Assembly: GCA_032358255.1 (NCBI GenBank)
Contig: JAULBX010023296.1
Location: 1-64,000 of the forward strand
Source of the DNA: Heterotrichella gracilis
Taxonomy: Eukaryota > Sar > Xanthophyceae > Tribonematales > Xanthonemataceae
DNA length: 64,000 bases
Reading direction: 5' to 3'
The translations under genes and the position numbers were made by a program. The notes beneath the pieces are model-generated. The model was not told the origin of the DNA. It worked only from the letters and a program-made list of their open reading frames with translations, and did no database searches. This document shows, in pieces, positions 48,963-62,148 of the stretch; the stretch's first letter is position 1; every line of letters begins with the position of its first letter.

Positions 48963-51388
48963 ATGGTAACCCCACCCTTGGTGGCGCTGCAGGGCGCCAG
49001 GCCACCACTACTATTCATCCACGGCTCCTACCATGGCGCATGGTGTTGGCAGGTATGTGGCGCTACACGTGCACGCCCCTGCTGCAACTGCATACCATGC
49101 TGCGAACCAATTGTTTTTTCCGGGGTGTGATATACTAGAACCAATCATGACCACATGGGACCTAGGTGTTGCCCATCGGCGCCGAATTTATTCCCTGCAT
49201 GTGCACCAAAATCTGTCCATTGCTGACCACCCATCTGCAGCTGCATAGGATGAAATAGTTGCTCATTTGTATTGCCGCATGGCTACAAATCACCACCAGC
49301 GACATGAGAGGGGATATCCTGCAGTATGAAGGTACATATCATTCTGCATCCCCCACAAAATGGGGAAATATCGATGCCGCTGCTAACCTACCTTTTCGGC
49401 ATGCAGGAGAACTTCATGCCTTATTTTTCTGCACGTGGGTACGACACCTATGCCGTCAGCCTGCGGGGTCAGGGGGACAGCGACCGGGGGGACCTAAAAA
49501 TTGGGGGCACATTGCAGTCACATGCCGACGATCTGGCCAGCTTTGTGGCCACTATGGACAGCGCCCCAGTGCTGATTGGACACTCGTTCGGAGGCCTTTT
49601 GGTGCAAAAGTGAGGCAGAAAATTGCCGCATGACCTGCAGCTGCCTTGTCTGATTAAGGAATGCAGCAGGCCGCAATATAGGCAAAGGAGTGATGCCGCA
49701 TATACACAGGAAGGCACAACGATGTGCATGTGTACGGTAATACAGAATAATGATGGCATAATATGATATAATACGACATAATATAATATCGGCAGTATCA
49801 GTTTCTTCTGTCATGTGTTCTCCTTCCCCAGGTCTCTCACTGTGAGAAAGCAAGGGGCAAACTGTCTACTTCAATTAATGTATGTGGTGAATTTATGCAG
49901 GTATGTGACCCAGCTGGAAGACAAGCCGCCAATTGCTGGAGTTGCATGCCTGTGCTCTGTCCCGCACACAGGCAACAAGGAGATTGTGGCGCGGGTGTTC
50001 AAGCGGTCCCTGGTGGATGCCTTCAAGATCACATGGTGTGCCAAATGCTCTTGGACCCAGTGTGCAGTCAGTAATTGCTTTGGGCTGTTTTCTTGCACAT
50101 GTGCTGCCAACCGTTTTGTGCTGTAATAAAGCAGTGCATCCATGGGGTTTTGACACGCTTATTGCGCTTTAGTTCTACTACTTGGCACACTACAAACACC
50201 TGTGGTGCTATGTACCGCTGCGAGTTGGATGTTCGATCGGCGTGTGTGGTCATGTGCAGGGCCTTTGTGGGGAAGTCGTTTGCGCGCAGCCTGGACGCTG
50301 CACGGGAGGCCTTCTTCTCCCCAGACATCCCGCTGGAGGACCTGAAGCGGTGAGCAATCGCAGGGCTTGAAGCAGCCATCCTTATTAATGGTGAAATCAT
50401 ATGGGGTTGCTGCAGGCCTATGTGTGCAGCATGTAAGGGCATGCGCAGCAGTGGTCCATGCCTTTTCGGTGGAGATAGGTGTTTCTCTTGTACGACTACA
50501 ACGCTGCAGGACCAGGCCATGCAGCGTGATATCCCCATGTCAGCCGTGTACCCACACCACCACCAACCGTCCTCATTATCAACCCAGCTGCAGCTCCATC
50601 GGTTCAGGAGGAATCATTAACAGAGTAAAAGGCATTACTCTTCGGCCCGCCAAAATTGCCCCTCCCATTCACGCCAAGAGAATCAACACCGCATGCTGTT
50701 TCCTACTTGCGGGAATACCCTAATTATGAACCCCTAAACCCTACAACCCTCCGTTTCCAGGTACCAAGCCCAGCTGGCGGCCTGCAGCCCTGTGCGCATG
50801 CTCGACCTGTCAGACATGATGAAAGAGGTGCCCCTGCCCCCCCCGCCACCCAGCGCACCCCCCGCCTTTGTGCTTGGTGGGGACAGCGACCTGGTGGTGG
50901 ATGTGGAGGCTGTGCGGGAGCTGGGTGGGTACTACGGTGTGGAGCCGGTGGTGCTGCGGGGCATGGCGCACGACTGCATGCTGGTGAGTGGGGGGAGTAT
51001 GGTATGCTGCAGGGCATGGCGCATGACTGCATGCTGATGAGTTGTGGGAGGAGGGTGGGTGGTGGAGGGGACAGCGGGGTGGTATGCTGCGGGGCATGGG
51101 GCATGACTGCAAGCTGGTGAGTGGGGCGGGGGAGGGTGGGTGGGTGGTGGAGGGGGAGATGGATAATATGCTGTGGGGGTTGGTGTGTCGGGTGTGCAGC
51201 AACGTGTGGCAACTGTGGCGCTGCACGCAAGAGTTGTGGAGGCCAGCTTGGTGAGGGGACGAGGCGGGGAGGGTATGCTCTGTGTGGTGTGCGGTACCCA
51301 TGTGTATGTGTATGTGTGTGTGCAGGACACGCGCTGGGAGGAGGCAGCAGCGGCGCTGGACAAGTGGTTGGGAACAATCAGCAAGTAG
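48963..51388 (+). CDS. Alpha/beta hydrolase fold protein
   Basis: Six plus-strand exons close in phase: 48963-49052, 49407-49609, 49901-50035, 50260-50349, 50761-50983, 51326-51388, giving 267 residues. Fold markers appear in order: LLFIHGSYHGAWCW (oxyanion strand and loop), the nucleophile elbow GHSFGG (Ser about 90), an acidic GGDSD late in the protein and the catalytic His in GMAHD. This triad order fits esterases, lipases and methylesterase-like hydrolases; the substrate cannot be inferred. The short start (MVTPPLVALQG) follows a good context (ACCATGG), and there is no clear signal or transit peptide. The boundary of exon 5 with its intron is repeated twice more in the following intron. 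The 3' flank has a 21-nt near-perfect palindrome at 51501-51521. Confidence 0.85.
50957..51130 (+). repeat. Three tandem copies of the exon 5 / intron 5 boundary
   Basis: The end of exon 5 (GGCATGGCGCACGACTGCATG, then the donor) recurs at about 51003-51045 and 51081-51130 with small changes, spaced some 75-80 bp. The third copy keeps a CTGGTGAGTGG donor; the second has lost the GT. Confidence 0.85.
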
Positions 51389-52083: not shown

Positions 52084-55000
52084 TCACACCAGGAACTGCG
52101 AGAAAAACGCCCTGTACTGCTGCACGCTCGCCTTGTTGGCCGGGATAATGTGGCCCGCCGCGTGGCGCACGCACTGCGCCATGTCAGCATCAAAGGCATC
52201 CACCAGCGCCTCGCTCTCATTGGTGCTGATCTGGCGGTCATGTGACTGGCAGCCAAACACGTGCAGGGAGGGCAGGGCGATTGGCGCCACGTCAGCCAGG
52301 AGCTGCTCCAGGCAGGGCGCTTGGGGGAGGTAGCCCGAGCACAAGACGGCGAATCTGAATCCAAATGGTGGCTGGTGGGACGATTTCAGTCCCGCAGTGC
52401 CATCACCAGCTGGTCCATGAGGTGTGCCTTGTGTCTCAGGGAGTGCGTGTGGGGGGTGGTGGGCAAGCTCCAGCTCTGTGGTACCCAATCCTGGCTCATA
52501 TGGGGTGCCTTGTGTCGGATCATCATGTTGAGACAGTTGCTGCAACTGCTGCTGCTGTAGCGCACATAGCGCTACCGCCACCGCGCTGCCCTGCGAGAAG
52601 CCCAAAACCCCGTCAAAGGGCCCCTGCGTGGCCGCCACCTCCCGCAGGGCCGCCAGGCTGGCCCCCCACCCCAGGCTCTGCCCCCTGTGCTGGTTGTCAG
52701 TCACGTGGGGGGGCGCCTCCACCCACGTGGTACGGGACCCTGGTTGTTGCATGGCCTCATGTTCCCATTCGGACATGAGCCAGGCCCGCTTTGGGGCTGG
52801 CATCCCCTCCCGCTGGTGTTGATGGTCATGGCGCACCCCTTGCTGGTGACAGCTGGCGACAGGTGCAGCTGCCGTTGACCCACCGTGGCGCATGTCTGTC
52901 CTCCCTGATTGAGCACGCCATTGCTCCCCTTGGTGTGCTGTGGTGGGTCCCTCTTGGCTGCGCATCGGCGCATTGCAAGCATCTGCGTTCTCACCACAGC
53001 ATTCTGCCACATGGGTTGTTGCCGTGCTGTGGTGATGGCCATTTGCAGCCTGTGATTGAACACCGCGAGGGGAATGTATCCCTCCCTCAGCATTGCCAGC
53101 CTCCCCTGCCTCCATGGATGTGCCCCCACTGCTGCCAGCTGGGCTCATGCTCTCATGATGTGCCAGCTCAGCATCCAGAGAGGGTGGTTCCTCCCCGCTG
53201 CCAGTCGCCTTGCTACACTCCCCCTGGGAAACTGGCTCCTTGGTACTTTTTAGTGGTTCCTCCCCGCTGACTGTTGATAATTCCTCCCCGTTGCCAGTTG
53301 CTTCACTTCCCTCCTCCTTCGGTACTGGCTTCTTGATGATGTACGGCAGCTCATGGGGAGCATCAACAAAAACGAACTCAATTATGTCTTGCAGCTTCTT
53401 CCTCAGGGATGCTGTGCGGCCCTGCAAGGATGGAAAATTAGGGCTCAGGAAAGGCGTTGCAAAATGCTCCTCCTTCCTTAGGAACGCTGTGCGGCCAAGC
53501 GGCTAACAAATATACAAACGATTATTTTGTTTGAAGGCAAGCAGCTCAACAAAGGCCATGGGAAACATATTCAAATTGATGCAGTTAATGGCTTCCTTCA
53601 TCCACTGCGTGCCCTTGCAATGTGAGGCAATGTGCCTGCAATTCGAGTGGGCGAGCCATGTACCCTCCGCACAACCCACCTTTAGCCCGCTTGCGTTCTG
53701 CCTGAAGCCATGTAAGCACAGCACTCTGAGCTTGCGGGGAGGGTTGCCACCGGGACCTGCACACACCCCACCATGCATGAGCAATATTTCTGCGATCGTA
53801 CTGCCGTATGCCATCATTTTCCCACGCACCACATCCGAACCCAAATAACACATATTACGATTTTGTTTTGCAGGTCTTCATTGGAACCCATAGAAATGAT
53901 TACTATGCAAAGATACTTAATGCAGTAAACCTTTTAGTAATCATGCATAGCTTGCTTGGGTACTGTGCATAGCTGCGCATTTTGCACATACGTAAGCTGT
54001 AGGTCCACAGCTGCAGCCCTTGGCGCAAACATGTTATGAGCAGGTAAGCACACATAACCCCACCTGAGGGTATGCAGCCGCGCTTGGCACATATCTCACA
54101 CACCAGCTGCTCGCCAGGTGGCGCATCCACGGCCACGCACTCCCCGCACACCAGCACCAGCATGCGGCACCTGGGAAGGAAATGCATGGAAATCAGGAAG
54201 TTGATACATTTCAATGCCCGATGTTTTGGAATGCATCGGTTTTTTACATGTTTTGAGGAACGAGGAGAGACCAGGCAAGGGCAAGGACACCAAAAGGCAC
54301 GCAGGGGACCAACACATCTCTCATCCAAAGAACAATCCAAAGGCAAGCCTGCAGCGAGCAATGAATCAGTACTAATGATTGCAACATCAAGACAAGGTAC
54401 AGACAGTGAGCATGCGGCGCCTCTGGAGAGTAGCATGCAACAGGCAGACTGCAGGGTGCAGCTGAAAGATTCCTAACAAGCATGTTTCACCTGGCGCAGC
54501 GCTGCCTGGGCCCATAGTCATCACATGGCCTGGCACACAGCAGGCAGCACCCAACCACTGCAGCGGGTGCGGTGGGGTCAGTGGGTCCCACCGCCACCCT
54601 CTCGTCAAACACAAAATTCTTCCCCTTGAAGAAGCCGCCATCGGGGAAGGCCTCGAGGTAGCGCTGGATGCCACCTGGCAGGATGGCAGTGGAGGAGGGT
54701 GGTCAGACAGGGGACGGTACGCTAAGTGCATCTTCAGATGTGTAATATAATGTTTGCGAGTTAACAGCAGAGTCATGATTAAGCCCCCCACTGTCCTTTC
54801 GGACCTCAAGGCAGCCCAGGCTAAGCAATTCCCAAATCTCTGAGAGATTTCTGGGTAATGCATGTTGACCTACCCTGCAGCTGGAGCACGTCGTTGAACA
54901 TGTCCCCCTTGGCCATGAGGTAGGCGGATGCACGCTCGCAGCGCACACCCCCAGTGCAGTACATAAGCACCTTCCTGCCCTTGAGGCGCTGCTGGTGTGC

Positions 55001-57131: not shown

Positions 57132-60100
57132 ATGGATGACGGCAGCACAGACGGTGTCTTACCTGAAGAAGGCCCACAGTCCAACTGGGACGACCTCCCG
57201 GACGGCTGCCTGCACCATGTGCTTCACTTCCTCCCTGTGCCCGATATGCTTTCGGTGCGCCAACTAGACAAGCGCTGCAAACGTCTGGCCTCGGAGGATG
57301 CACTCTGGAGGTAAACGCACGTTTCGTGAGTTGGGTTGGGGTGGTGAAATGAAACCTGACCTGTACATGCCTGTGTGAGCTGTGCCCACCCTGGTCGTTA
57401 CCCAGCATACCTACCCTGGGGACCCTTTTGCACTACGTCCCCACCTCATTCCATCACTACCACAAGTTTCGCCTCTTTCGTTCTCACGACCCGTTGCCGA
57501 CCAACCCAACAGCCAACCTTGTACCGTTTCCACTTTGTAAAACCCCCCATGCTGCCCCACCCACACCGCCCCCACCCCTCCAGGGACACGTTCGCAAAAA
57601 CCTTTGCGCACCACTACACCACCGCAGCCACTCCCGCCAGCGCATCCCACTGGGCGGAGCTGTATCAGACCCGGCATGCCAGGGAGGCCCGCTGGGCCCG
57701 TGGAGACGCCACCTGTCAGCCCCTGCTGTCACATACAGGGGTAGGTATGAGGTTTCTTGTATGTGCTAGGAGCACACACATCGGTTGTCGCCCTTAACCC
57801 CCAACCCTGACCTTTGGAACCTACCCCTGCCAGCCCCTCCTGTCACACACAGGGGTAGGTGCTAGGAGCGTGTGCACACACACCACTTGCCACTTGCCCC
57901 TTCTCCTGCCAACAGCTGACTGCCAACTGCTGCTCTGAGCCAACTGCTATTTTGGCACCGGAACCCCTCTGAATGTTGGTGAATGCACAACCACTATGGC
58001 AAAGGCGGTCGCCTAGGGTTTCCACCCGGGCTTGTCATGCCCTCGTGTCCTGAGAGCCCATTATGCGTGTGCTGCGCCTGTGTCTGGTGTGCGCTTCCTG
58101 CCAGGCATGGCCCGCAGCACGGATGTTTGCACTAGGGTTTGCACCTAGGGTTTGCACCTAGGGCCTTCATATGTGCATCCAGCCGCTGCCCTGGCGCCCT
58201 GAGAGTCCCCTCTATGTTGGTGCAGCCTGTGTTTGGGGTGCGCTTCCTAGAGGCGCCCTTCCCCCCAGGCATGGCCCTCAGCGCGGGTGTGCAGGGCAGT
58301 GGGGATGCATCTGAGCTGGTGCTGTGGCAGCTGGACAGCGAGCAAGGGGGGTATGGCAGGTGGGGGTGGTGCTGGGGAGGTAGTAGGTTGGGGTTGTTGC
58401 CATGCTTGTCACCTCTCTCCGCCGTAATGAGAAATGGAATTGGGGGTGGGGGGGCTTGGGGCACGCTTCCTTGATGTAGGATTTAGGGTATAGGGTTCAG
58501 GCGCCTGCCAAGCGGTGGCCACGTGCCAGGTGGCATCGTGTGGCCTCACAGGGATGTGCACGTGATCCGCCAGCCCTTAGCATACCCATTGCTTACCCAT
58601 TGCATACCCATGACCCCTGTGAAATTCACCTCAAATCTGCACCCTTCAGGGTCCACCAGCGGCTCATCCAGGAGCCAGAGGATGACCTGGCGGGGCTGTT
58701 CAACGCATGCCAGCTGGCGGGCACCTGCCGAGTGGCAGCCTGTGGCTTCACGGGGGACGTGCATGTGATCGACCTGTCCCCGCTGGAGATTGATGGCCTC
58801 ACCCGAGACGAGCTGCTGCAGTATGTGGAGTCCATGCACCTGGCACCGGCGCACGAAGCCTGCACCATGAGTCTGGAGGTGGGTTGCAGGGTTTACGGTT
58901 TAGAGTCGATGCACCTGGTGCCGGCTGACGAAGCCTGCACCATGGGATTGGAGGTGGGTTTTGGGTTTAGAATTTAGAGTTGATGCACCTGCCGCCGGCT
59001 GAGGACGCGTGCACCATGGGGTTAAAGGTGGATGTAGGGTTTAGGGTTTGGGGTTTGGGGTCGTGGGAGGTTGAGTGGCAACATCATGGGCAGTGGTGAT
59101 AACGGTTAATGTCAGTGCGGGGCTGCACTGTTTGCCTTACACCCTGTAGCACGCAAGCTGTAACTTGACCACTGCCCCATCATCCCCGGCACGGCTATCA
59201 AAGCCGTTGGCCACCGGTGGCATGGCTCTAAACCCTGCAACCCCAACCCTAAACCCAAATTCCCTCCTCCGTACCCCCCGCAGGGGCTGCCAGACATGCT
59301 GCGCACCCCGCCCTGACACTTAAACCCTAAACCCCAACTTCCTCGCCAGGCATGAGCTGTCAGATCTGCTGAGCAACCCCGCCCTGAACCTAAACCCTGA
59401 ACCCCAACTTCCTCACCACGCAGGAGCTGTCAGACCTGCTGTGCGCCGCCGGCCCCGCCCTGGTCCCCCGCCACAGCGCCACCCTGTGCGGCCATGTGCA
59501 GGCGGTGCCGGGGGTGTGCAGCCAGCCTGGCATGCTGGCCACCTCGTCGTTCGATGGGACCATCCGGCTGTGGGATGTGCCGGTAAGCTCCTGCAAATGC
59601 TTTCGATGTAATGCTTGTCTTTCTATGTATGCATTTGGCATTCACCAGCATGTTCACTGGCACGTCTGTATATCCTTGGGATCCCGCTCCATCCCACTCC
59701 ATGAGCACTACGGAGAGACTATTGCTGGAGGATGATGTTTTTTTTTATATACGGTTAAGAGTATAGGTTGACCTCAGACAGCTAGCCCAACACGGAAGCC
59801 ATGATGGACCCTGTAGCTTCCTCGATGCCTTGCTCACCCACCTCACCTCTCTGTGGCAGCCAAGCACCGAGAGCAGCGCCCCACCCACCCACATCCACCC
59901 CACTGCCGTGCTGCTGGATGCGGGTAGCGTTGAGTCCCCCACCCTGGTAGACACCCGCTCTGTGTGCTGTGTGGCCCTCACTCCAGACTGCACGCGCCTG
60001 TCTTCGGGGTGTAATGACCTGCAGGTGGGGGTGCGAAACAATAGGTATTGAGGTCCTTCAATCCTCAACCTATCAGGAGGATGGATACATATACAGTTTT

Positions 60101-62148
60101 AGTCAAATCTAAAGTAGACGATTGGAAGGCCTCAAGTTGTAATGAATGTTGTTGAAATGTTTGTAACCTGCATACCTGCTAGCATGGAACGAACTTACTG
60201 GTCCTGCAGGCCTTTGAGCAGGATTGCCTGCCTCGCATGACCATGGGGGTGGCAGTGAGGATTGTTAAAGGGGACGGGCTAGGGAAAAGTGTCCAGGTCA
60301 AGCTGTGGGATGTGGGCAGCAGCAAAGTAACGACAAGGGTTTCACTCTAAAGTTTGTCTAGGGGCTCTCCTATGAGTTGCCCATGGTTTGGTCAGGATTC
60401 CATAACGGTTCACGTGTTCTTGCCCCCCATTCCTGTTCACCCAGCCCCCCCCAAAATTGCGCGCAGATCAAGCTGTGGGATGTGGCCAGCAGCAAGCTGG
60501 TGTCGAGGCTGGAGGGCAACCAGGGGTGGGTGTGGTGCCTTGAGCCCATGGACGATGCACACCACGTGCTCATCAGCGGGGCGGTGGATGGCTGTGTGCG
60601 CGTGTTTGACTCGCGATCGGGCAGGCAGGAGGCGCACCTGTCGGTGGGGCAACCCACCTCCTCAGGTAAACCCTGAACCCTGAACCCAAAAACCTGAACC
60701 CTCAACTTTCAACCCTAAAGCGCTCGGGCAGGCAGGAGGCGCACCTGTGAGTGGGCCAAGGCACATCCTCTGGTAAACCCTAAATCCCTAGAAACCTGTC
60801 ACTTTGGACTATTTCCAATGCTTTGATGACAAATTTCCCTCCTTGCAGACGATCTGTACTGTGTTGTTTTCCCCTGTTTCTCTTATCGCAGGCGATCTGC
60901 CTCACACCACCTTCCCCCACTGCAGGCGAGCTGTGGTCCCAGGGGCACCCTGTGGCGGGCATGGCGCTGCGACCAGATGGGCGCCTGCTGGTGTGCGGTG
61001 TGTTTGACGGCGCGGTACAGGTGCGGTGGTCACTGCGTAGGGGTTTCTAAGGGATTTAGGGTTTAGGGGTGGCTTTCAGCTGTTTGACTGCGCAGTGCCG
61101 GTGCGGCTCAGAGGGTTTAGGGTTTAGTGTTTGGCTTACAGCTGTCCATGTCAAGCAGCATGCTGCGCAAGGGATTGTGTGGTGTGAAGCATGCAGTGTA
61201 GGGCTTTGGGGTTTCTTGAATGCAGGGGGCTGAGATACACAGTACGTATCTGTACCCACAACACAAGCCCTAGGTATTGGTTACAAGCCTTCTTGGAAAT
61301 ACAGCCAGGTCAGCAGTCACCCCGTACAGCTGGCACCACCCACACACCTATCTTGGCCATGCATCACCCATTCCTTCATGCACAGCGCAGACACACGCCC
61401 CATGACAGCTGGCATCTAGCCACTCACTCTGGCAAGGCCCACACCCGATCAACTGGCCAGCAGCTCGCGCCCAGCGCAGAAGAGCTGCGGGCCAGCTGGA
61501 TTGGCATGGGCATTGCCAGGGCGAGCGGCGTGATGCCGGCTGCCGTGGGTGTGCGGCATTATGCAGCAAATGCGCTGGGAATTGGGGTGGCATGTTCCGC
61601 AGCGCCGGTTCTCATGTACTGGCGGCGGTTAGTGGCTGTGCCAGGCTGTGGTACCCCATGAGCATAGCCACTGGCCGCCGCAGCTACATGCGCACCGGCC
61701 CTGCGGGATATGCAATTTCGACTCCCAGCGCATTTGCTGGGTTTACACCAGCCGCTGCGCACAGACAGCGTAGCTAACATGGCCTGACCCTCCCCCCTGA
61801 ACAGCCCACTGGCATGTCAGGTCTAACCCTGAGTGAAAGGCATGAATTTCGAATTAAATAATATACCCACTCAACCCCTACGTCTAGTCAGCACAACCCA
61901 ATACATCATATTTAGGGTTTAGGGTCTAGAATAAAAACCCGAAGCCCGCTGACACTCCCCTCCTTCCCTCGTCCCAGGTGGTCGACCTCCGCTGTCTGAA
62001 AACCCTACAGACCCTAAGCAGCCTGTACGGCCTGGGGGACGCCACCGAGGATGGGCACAGCGATCGGGTGACGCGCGTGGCGTGCCAAGATGATAGGGTG
62101 CTGTCAGCATCTTTTGACATGCAGGTGTGCTTGTGGCAGTTTGACTGA
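57132..62148 (+). CDS. F-box / WD40 repeat protein
   Basis: Ten plus-strand exons close in phase: 57132-57310, 57584-57740, 58226-58350, 58650-58878, 59424-59582, 59860-60024, 60210-60296, 60467-60665, 60926-61020, 61978-62148, giving 521 residues. The N-terminal F-box (about residues 19-60) reads WDDLPDGCLHHVLHFLPVPDML..., with VRQLDKRCKRLA and ALWR. WD-type blades follow: LSAGVQG...LVLWQL, VAACGFTGDVHVIDL, LATSSFDGTIRLWDV, IKLWDVASSKLV, VLISGAVDGCVRVFD, LLVCGVFDGAVQ and VLSASFDMQVCLWQF. Such proteins bind SKP1 through the F-box and present substrates to an SCF ubiquitin ligase; the substrate is unknown. Exons 3 and 7 are the least certain. Introns 2-9 carry many partial copies of adjacent exon edges, TTTAGGG-like tracts and, in the last one, a long hairpin. 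Confidence 0.82.
57827..57866 (+). repeat. Copy of the end of F-box exon 2
   Basis: CAGCCCCTCCTGTCACACACAGGGGTAGG repeats the exon 2 end and donor (57717-57746). It lies about 110 bp downstream in the intron. Confidence 0.8.
58074..58117 (+). repeat. Copy of the start of F-box exon 3
   Basis: GCCTGTGTCTGGTGTGCGCTTCCTG and CAGGCATGGCC repeat the start of exon 3 (58226 onward) but lack an internal stretch of about 15 bp. It lies about 150 bp upstream. Repeats of the word TTTGCACCTAGGG separate the two. Confidence 0.75.
58832..59032 (+). repeat. Three tandem copies of the F-box exon 4 end
   Basis: The exon end encoding MHLAPAHEACTM and its donor (to 58885) is repeated at about 58903-58960 and 58980-59032, with a period near 75 bp. 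TTTAGGG/TTTACGG words lie between and after the copies. Confidence 0.85.
59279..59460 (+). repeat. Three tandem copies of the F-box exon 5 start
   Basis: CAGGxxCTGTCAGACCTGCTG-type exon starts occur at 59279, 59348 and the true 59421. Each copy is followed by a CCCCGCCCTG word, and the copies are separated by CCTAAACCCTAAACCCCAACTTCCTC. Confidence 0.85.
60297..60327 (+). repeat. Copy of the start of the F-box exon at 60467
   Basis: GTCAAGCTGTGGGATGTGGGCAGCAGCAAAG repeats ATCAAGCTGTGGGATGTGGC... at 60467. It lies directly after the preceding exon's donor site. Confidence 0.8.
60720..60779 (+). repeat. Copy of the end of the F-box exon at 60665
   Basis: CGCTCGGGCAGGCAGGAGGCGCACCTG... down to TCCTCTGGTAAACCC repeats 60615-60672, with GTGAGTGGG where the true exon reads GTCGGTGGGG. 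It lies just downstream in the intron. Confidence 0.85.
61079..61108 (+). repeat. Copy of the end of the F-box exon at 61020
   Basis: CTGTTTGACTGCGCAGTGCCGGTGCGG repeats the exon end TGTTTGACGGCGCGGTACAG and its donor GTGCGG. TTTAGGGTTTAGG-like words flank it. Confidence 0.75.
61564..61739 (+). ncRNA. Intronic long hairpin, candidate small-RNA precursor
   Basis: Arms at 61564-61641 and 61662-61739 pair over about 78 nt around a 20-nt loop. The outer 17 bp are perfect (CAGCAAATGCGCTGGGA against its complement). Of roughly 15 other differences, about ten are G-U wobbles when read as plus-strand RNA; only about five are true mismatches, plus small bulges. The hairpin lies in the last intron of the F-box/WD40 gene in sense orientation. 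Algal miRNA precursors are often long intronic hairpins, so a miRNA or siRNA source is plausible; a fold-back transposon is the alternative. Confidence 0.55.

Follow-up and report, generated by a model that had tools for sequence, protein, structure and literature searches.

The edges of exons in the genome of Heterotrichella gracilis repeatedly recur as direct copies within the adjoining introns, and short runs of the organism's own telomeric repeat mark many of the seams between the copies, in the arrangement segment X, telomeric run, segment X. The exon-edge copies were first noticed in a window of 64,000 nucleotides (C233:1-64000 of a 68.5-Mb, 903-contig assembly), and they are confirmed as a real feature that reaches beyond that window and across a 304-kb sample. 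The copies decay neutrally, and the introns that hold them are longer. They are probably, though by no means certainly, footprints of the repair of double-strand breaks, in which a staggered break would have been filled in at both ends, supplied with telomeric filler and closed by end joining.

The sample consisted of the window, 90 kb more of C233 and fifteen 10-kb stretches; the fifteen stretches outside C233 are all contig starts. Two stretches, L002 (from G000 C1, a contig of 894 kb) and L009 (from C100, 109 kb), were left out because their G+C content was under 45%. The first 10 kb of these contigs are 36-37% G+C and carry long ORFs of bacterial look, presumably with gliding/secretion-type C-terminal domains, and the two contigs are probably those of a Bacteroidota companion in the assembly. 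Gene models were predicted ab initio by a gene finder self-trained on the 304 kb, which settled at 64 genes containing 441 introns; the predicted splice consensus is MAG/GTRNG at donors and TGCAG/G at acceptors. Across all predicted introns, about 5% of donors have GC instead of GT. The models contain errors: one predicted exon, at 57853, is 2 nt long, and intronic copies were in some cases called as exons. The 441 introns were reduced to 401 with both exons of at least 20 nt, and then to 386 of 60-1200 nt.

At about 10% of splice sites in the 304 kb, the exon edge recurs in its own intron, as compared with 0.2-0.3% for swapped introns. When 60-nt exon edges were aligned, a score of at least 80 was reached against the edge's own intron at 35 donor and 40 acceptor sides (386 of each), versus 6/3844 and 10/3844, respectively, against introns of other genes. 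This excess upholds the original prediction that introns repeatedly contain neighbouring exon edges. Under strict scoring of exons of at least 120 nt, matches were found for 24/278 donors and 25/278 acceptors, with 0 and 0 in the controls. Match coverage peaks in the first 30-40 exon nucleotides from the splice site and is near zero by 100 nt. That acceptor-side copies lie upstream and donor-side copies downstream, as was also predicted, is a pattern forced by geometry. It is conceivable that the copies arose instead by templated insertion or proximal DNA capture of the polymerase theta or SDSA type, which would copy an exon edge into a break; such capture at breaks is known in vertebrates (PMC2671141, in the part of that paper available), and non-telomeric fillers of 40-140 nt do occur between copies. 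Both orientations would be expected from such a process, whereas the reverse-complement control reached a score of at least 80 for only 2/386 donors (one of the two at 150 or more) and 0/386 acceptors; moreover, copies abut the telomeric run on either side, and templated insertion is accordingly considered improbable.

A strict scan of the sample recovered 204 local pairs, or 202 once two telomeric arrays were removed, of which 142 are 70-90% identical, 30 at least 90% and 30 less than 70%. The copies are thus decayed to different degrees, as had been claimed, and their many ages bear out a local duplication process. Assembly artefact found no support, save that a few near-identical pairs could individually be of this kind; with 172 of the 202 pairs below 90% identity, it is a highly improbable explanation of the whole. 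With telomeric words masked, intron regions (which took in up to 100 nt of exon per side) yielded 116 pairs in 74 of 386, or 6.4 per 10 kb; intergenic pieces yielded 21 pairs in 11 of 126 (2.7 per 10 kb), and of the 271 exons of at least 150 nt, 14 held 30 pairs between them (4.1 per 10 kb). No pairs arose in the Markov controls for any of the three classes. The process is evidently fresh enough to be read, as 76 of the 386 introns hold at least one recognisable local duplication, many of them with a telomeric seam, and 48 hold a pair that spans a splice site.

One group of cases in the window lies in an F-box/WD40 gene (57132 to about 61020; Table 1), for which the WD40 match is above the Pfam cut-off and the F-box match just below it. 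The gene finder joins this gene to a downstream one (57132-65650), the protein of which is taken to resemble a mitochondrial carrier, and the border near 61020-62022 is uncertain. The prediction that at least seven exon edges are copied in the F-box/WD40 gene holds once weak copies are counted: strict copies were recovered for six edges and weak ones for two more, and three other exon edges that were tried gave poor matches only. At exon 4, the first copy of X stops 2 nt short of the telomeric run, telomeric sequence follows the second copy as well, and the array (58829-59049) comprises three copies, the third extending to about 59049 (TRF period 74). The exon 5 array resolves into the pairs 59241-59307/59382-59447 and 59250-59384/59321-59454, and CCCTAAA-like words precede its acceptor-side copies. 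At the start of exon 8, the gene model called part of the copy at 60294-60495 as exon. At its end, the strict pair is 60613-60680/60720-60787 (85%); the X copies abut the telomeric run with 0 nt on either side, and some telomeric sequence also lies past the second copy.

Table 1. Exon-edge copies in the window and examples of direct repeats that flank a telomeric run (X-tel-X).
Locus	Feature	Position	Strand	Details
Kelch gene	acceptor-side duplication	1143-1363/1369-1581	+	81%; 94% over last 108 nt
Kinase gene	acceptor-side copy	8525-8581/8676-8731	-	83%; no telomeric 6-mers in filler
Hydrolase gene	donor-side copies	50898-50993, 51028-51126, 51081-51183	+	gap without telomeric 6-mers
F-box/WD40	donor-side copy pair	57701-57746/57815-57860	+	83%; telomeric fraction of gap 0.09
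F-box/WD40	exon 3 start, acceptor-side copy	58038-58099/58187-58248	+	78%; telomeric fraction of gap 0.18
F-box/WD40	exon 3 start, second acceptor-side copy	58091-58126/58255-58290	+	83%; telomeric fraction of gap 0.12
F-box/WD40	X, first copy: exon 4 end and donor site	58829..58885	+	ungapped 57-nt direct repeat, 49/57
F-box/WD40	telomeric seam AGGGTTTACGGTTTAG between exon 4 X copies	58888..58903	+	purity 0.94
F-box/WD40	exon 4 X, second copy, intronic	58904..58960	+	57-nt direct repeat
F-box/WD40	three acceptor-side copies: intron end and exon 5 start	59250..59454	+	TRF period 70, 2.3 copies
F-box/WD40	exon 8 start, acceptor-side copy	60294-60325/60464-60495	+	94%
F-box/WD40	X, first copy: exon 8 end to donor site's first base	60613..60666	+	54-nt repeat, 46/54
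F-box/WD40	telomeric seam, 53 nt, CCCTAAA/CCCTGAA orientation	60667..60719	+	purity 0.83
F-box/WD40	exon 8 X, second copy, intronic	60720..60773	+	54-nt repeat
F-box/WD40	weak acceptor-side copy	60829-60857/60906-60934	+	21/29
F-box/WD40	exon 9 end, weak donor-side copy	61001-61026/61081-61106	+	22/26
F-box/WD40	X-tel-X examples	58829-58960 and 60613-60773		
L016	X-tel-X example	102		53/55 nt; outside predicted genes
C233	X-tel-X example	73445		50/52 nt
L031	X-tel-X example	500		45/52 nt
L040	X-tel-X example	500		15/15 nt
L015	X-tel-X example	9252		27/32 nt; outside predicted genes; run is pure repeat

Cases had also been reported in four other genes of the window. Those in the Kelch, kinase and hydrolase genes were all recovered, the hydrolase copies as three overlapping units (50898-51183), and protein matches support the Kelch and kinase labels. 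The Kelch unit has a TTTAGGG run at its start and CCCTAAA runs ahead of each acceptor. In the rhodanese/FSH1 gene, the case at 53471 is weak, a 32-nt match at 81% that is absent from the window's 21 strict pairs; a different exon edge of this gene is copied at 56034-56117/56167-56252 (70%). A direct repeat pair in the same gene (53188-53335, 76%) lies wholly within a predicted long exon and is one exonic pair that selection has not removed.

The telomere repeat of this organism is TTTAGGG, as seen from long runs at the starts of contigs C70, C140, C526, C609, C717 and C770; (CCCTAAA)2CCC has 2437 overlapping matches genome-wide and its reversed control has 1. The short internal runs therefore consist of the organism's own telomeric repeat, as is expected of interstitial telomeric sequences. 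Among 7-mers seen at least 15 times in introns, the top 14 by over-representation comprise every permutation of the telomere repeat, read on either strand. Exact TTTAGGG/CCCTAAA words number 139 in 127 kb of intron, 31 in 82 kb of intergenic sequence and 2 in 95 kb of exon, while 108 independent runs of at least 14 telomeric bases are divided into 83 intronic, 22 intergenic and 3 exonic; run density is higher in introns than between genes (83/105 in introns, p=1e-4).

The placement of this sequence relative to the copies was examined with one duplication per locus and a gap of 8-150 nt (n=46, once 11 loci whose two copies each lie partly in predicted exon had been set aside). Telomeric 6-mers cover 20.8% of the junction between the copies, whereas coverage is 5.8% in the outer flank and 4.0% at the copy end (p=3e-4 and 2e-5), and at least one such 6-mer is present in 30 of 46 seams as compared with 16 of 46 outer flanks; the other 16 gapped loci have a junction without any. 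The same effect is seen at the nine loci without exon, where coverage is 22.9% in the seam and 4.9% in the outer flank. Beside the exonic breakpoint of 72 intronic copies, telomeric sequence covers 27-29% of the first 30 nt, compared with 9.9% at random places in the same introns (sd 2.8, maximum 20.1, 500 draws). TTTAGGG-like words thus often separate the copies, as the original prediction had it; what that prediction missed is that they mark the seam itself, which bears on the mechanism.

A converse test started from the telomeric runs, with no gene model, and compared the sequence before each run with that after it. Direct repeats abut the run with a score of at least 12 at 14 of 137 runs (which include those of 20 further stretches), versus 0/534 when flanks were swapped between runs, and 117 of the 137 runs have no flanking repeat at a score of at least 6. 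In the first set, an abutting rule (score of at least 80, both distances at most 15) was satisfied at 17/108 runs versus 10/2180 random places, the rule having been chosen after that set was seen. It was fixed before the 20 further stretches, drawn from the (CCCTAAA)2CCC matches on C2, C3, C4, C6, C8 and C9, were examined. These gave 3/20, as compared with 16/1000 at places taken at random within those loci (p=0.005) and 0/380 for swapped flanks; C2 and C3 had each given one stretch to the first set. Without the abutting rule, flanking repeats are found at 26.9% of telomeric runs and 6.9% of random places.

At the 15 best loci the median length is 52 bp for the duplicated segment (range 15-73 bp) and 30 nt for the insert. 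Direct repeats of tens of base pairs are as expected of tandem duplication at staggered breaks, and their abutment on the run has the look of a break-processing footprint. Telomeric 6-mers also lie beyond the copies, within 30 nt of one or both of them, at 8 of the 15 loci (at one of them by a single base), and L016 102 sits in an array of units bearing telomeric sequence. Such loci would be explained if the duplicated unit carried the run beforehand, or if X and its run were duplicated jointly at a later stage. The other 7 loci have the run between the copies only, with no telomeric 6-mer within 30 nt outside, which fits a run inserted when X was doubled. Both classes set a duplication breakpoint at a telomeric run. 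Telomeric purity and X divergence gave no support for co-ageing (rho -0.13, p=0.65, n=15), and the edges of the 15 junctions are too decayed for their register with the telomeric repeat to be read. Several of the 15 inserts, when written with TTTAGGG on top, end in GGGTTT before the second copy, although the cases are few.

Because telomeric sequence lies outside the copies at those 8 best loci, plain duplication of telomere-bearing units has to be taken as a serious rival. On this account, slippage or unequal exchange, perhaps promoted by G-quadruplexes, would have duplicated units that already carried telomere-like runs, and the runs themselves would be fragile sites or bystanders derived from elsewhere. 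Arrays with telomeric sequence in each unit are in keeping with it, namely those at 58829-59049, at 59250-59454 and at L015 6027-6440. Moreover, the gap is under 8 nt in 46 of 106 independent loci, which are plain tandem duplications, and copies are found at 18/132 donors with telomeric sequence within 100 nt versus 13/254 others, and at 19/117 such acceptors versus 12/269 others. Against it, the telomeric sequence of the 46 gapped loci sits between the copies rather than in the outer flank or the copy end, and 7 of the 15 best loci have the run between the copies only. On balance, this rival is doubtful but a real possibility. The array at L015 6027-6440 consists of four 106-nt tandem units. 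Each combines the end of an exon with a stretch that is TTTAGGG-like along nearly all its length, opens with GTAGGG and closes with TTTAG, and so has donor- and acceptor-like ends.

The favoured reading, break repair with telomeric filler, could proceed as follows. A gene would suffer a staggered break of both strands that leaves complementary overhangs of roughly 15-75 nt, and fill-in of both ends, as is standard for staggered breaks, would leave the segment X between the nicks at each end. In many events a few telomeric repeats would then be set between the ends, either by telomerase or as captured telomeric DNA, before the ends are joined. Where X is wholly exonic, the gene would usually be broken and the event lost; an X that is intronic or crosses a splice site would presumably leave the protein unchanged, with splicing at the outer site. 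The second X would then decay as intron, and later duplication of X with its run could lengthen introns and build up arrays of two to about five copies. The genome encodes both a TERT and a Ku domain, and a role for Ku in these duplications is conceivable. The best Ku-domain match (G000:C771:556778-557047) runs through two stop codons and may contain an intron or be a broken copy. A search for CTC1_2 had no match in the genome, and its controls likewise gave nothing, so that this search is uninformative.

A variant in which telomerase acts as a rule at both ends, leaving TTTAGGG first and CCCTAAA last, was rejected, since 28 of 30 telomeric fillers are in one orientation only; the Kelch case, outside that set of 30, does show the order. 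Acceptor-side fillers are CCCTAAA in 9/11 cases and donor-side fillers TTTAGGG in 8/14. When all introns are taken together, TTTAGGG words are most concentrated close to donors and CCCTAAA words close to acceptors, and in introns without exon-edge duplications the former are about twofold denser in the first 50 nt, and the latter about twofold denser in the last 50 nt, than elsewhere in the intron. The orientation of the fillers on the two sides looks filtered, and CCCTAAA would seem to resemble a branch site and pyrimidine tract.

It is conceivable that the copies are functional, as alternative exon edges or splice sites under selection. They do hold splice sites, and some young copies are in frame in the gene models. 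The pattern of change, however, is that of an unconstrained copy next to a constrained exon: copy and exon differ by 0.152, 0.127 and 0.255 at first, second and third codon positions, respectively, and of the 27 indels found in exonic sequence 25 are frame-breaking (75 events). Divergence is 0.243 in the intronic part of the duplicates and 0.168 in the exonic part (35 events), the latter about what is expected from the neutral decay of one copy. This is as expected if the copy mutates freely while the exon gathers mostly silent changes. In the plant-type alpha-amylase gene, the gene finder called an intronic copy as exon, and the 15 residues so added have no counterpart in barley amylase 2qpu, which shows a gap there. 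Such a function is therefore unlikely in the extreme for the copies at large, and the suggestion that they supply alternative splice sites is not favoured, as they decay neutrally and show no coding constraint.

The proposal that introns are enlarged fared better. Introns with a splice-site-spanning copy have a median length of 395 nt, versus 245.5 nt for those without any pair, and the median duplicated unit is 107 nt. The proposal that the process acts at exon-intron boundaries in particular did not hold, as pairs also occur within introns and between genes. Splice-site-spanning pairs are found in 48 introns and internal pairs in 21; uniform placement predicts 0.74 spanning per internal event, whereas 2.59 were observed by pairs and 2.29 by introns. 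This excess is significant against uniform placement (p=7e-6). A copy held by selection, however, keeps its duplicate recognisable for longer, and with a twofold longer detectable life, which is the analysis's own estimate and was put at about twice at most, the p value becomes 0.11. The process is thus not specific to exon-intron borders, and the excess there is compatible with survivorship, which it fits because duplications at splice sites are harmless. A splice-site hotspot was rejected as unneeded after this correction, although there may be a small true preference for splice sites.

The further suggestion that the duplications create introns received at most a hint of support. The sequences around the donor and the acceptor match each other in register with a score of at least 8 in 9/379 introns versus 186/15117 swapped pairs, and with a score of at least 10 in 2/379 versus 25/15117. 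Intron birth by AGGT duplication was therefore set aside, although the candidates at L005 6910-7137, L020 4769-5190 and L003 5400-5573 look right individually.

Another means by which an insert could come to be flanked by direct repeats is the integration of mobile elements, or of members of an introner family, that duplicate their target sites. Against this, the lengths of the duplications vary from 15 to 73 bp. The matches of the F-box gene elsewhere in the genome fall on telomeric stretches only (6/7 on 60667-60732 and 1 on 59026-59061), the 222-bp array matches itself alone, and the flanks of 90 spaced runs share 345.5 10-mers versus 545 (sd 123) at random places. An early sign of a larger element around the telomeric runs, 2138 versus 1038 in sharing, had included the runs of one array and was discarded in view of the spaced-run figures. 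A mobile element has next to nothing to recommend it here.

It is tempting to suggest, albeit only tentatively, that introns in this lineage have grown in large part through telomere-type repair of broken genes by telomerase and the telomeric fill-in machinery. The repeats may be tolerated in introns because CCCTAAA near acceptors mimics a branch site and pyrimidine tract, with GGG-rich TTTAGGG near donors. Intron lengthening and the source of the added sequence are mostly unseen because intron sequence decays. The finding ties together telomere maintenance, break repair and gene architecture, and it has a practical side in that ab initio gene finders are misled by intronic exon copies.

Several known systems come close. 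In rodents, primates and the horse, short interstitial telomeric sequences have been inserted at double-strand breaks, with target duplication at 6/130 rodent, 4/25 primate and 3/66 horse loci (plus 2/66 mixed), i.e., from about 5% of loci in rodents and the horse to 16% in primates; in human, none of the short interstitial telomeric sequences are in exons and 31% are in introns, as chance predicts (PMC2246262, PMC7215372, as given in the accessible parts of those papers). Common to both systems, so far as these parts describe, are short internal runs put down to break repair and, sometimes, duplication of the target. In H. gracilis, however, repeats of 15-73 bp abut about 10% of the runs, whereas duplication is a minority outcome at the mammalian loci; the runs are denser in introns than between genes, unlike human introns that are hit as by chance; and the outcome includes exon-edge copies and longer introns. 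Insertion is also deduced here, while in the mammals it was demonstrated through empty sites.

On the mechanistic side, small tandem duplications are formed from breaks with 3' overhangs through CST-Pol alpha fill-in and NHEJ (PMC8355091, in the portion available). Those duplications, according to the same portion, share with the present ones direct repeats of less than 100 bp, complementary overhangs and a fill-in complex that is also telomeric; the present cases differ in being natural footprints with a telomeric seam, in which a role for CST or Ku is conceivable. Repeats between an intron and the adjacent exon in Daphnia neointrons have likewise been put down to staggered breaks, with introns that lengthen as here, but they are 4-12 bp long and mark new introns, whereas those of H. 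gracilis are tens of base pairs long, extend introns and often have a telomeric seam (PMC4202315, available part). Intron gain by tandem genomic duplication at AGGT similarly doubles a segment with splice sites, although the copies here mostly extend existing introns and the in-register similarity is at most a hint (PMC3443670, available part). In Drosophila, filler DNA was sought as a source of introns, and the excess of flanking repeats was not significant (PMC3296678, available part). The literature matches listed, largely without subscription papers, include neither telomeric seams at exon-edge duplications nor telomeric repeats as a main component of introns in algae, which is weak evidence of absence. 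The use of telomeric repeats in break repair is thus known, and what seems new in H. gracilis is the long flanking duplications and a scale at which introns are shaped.
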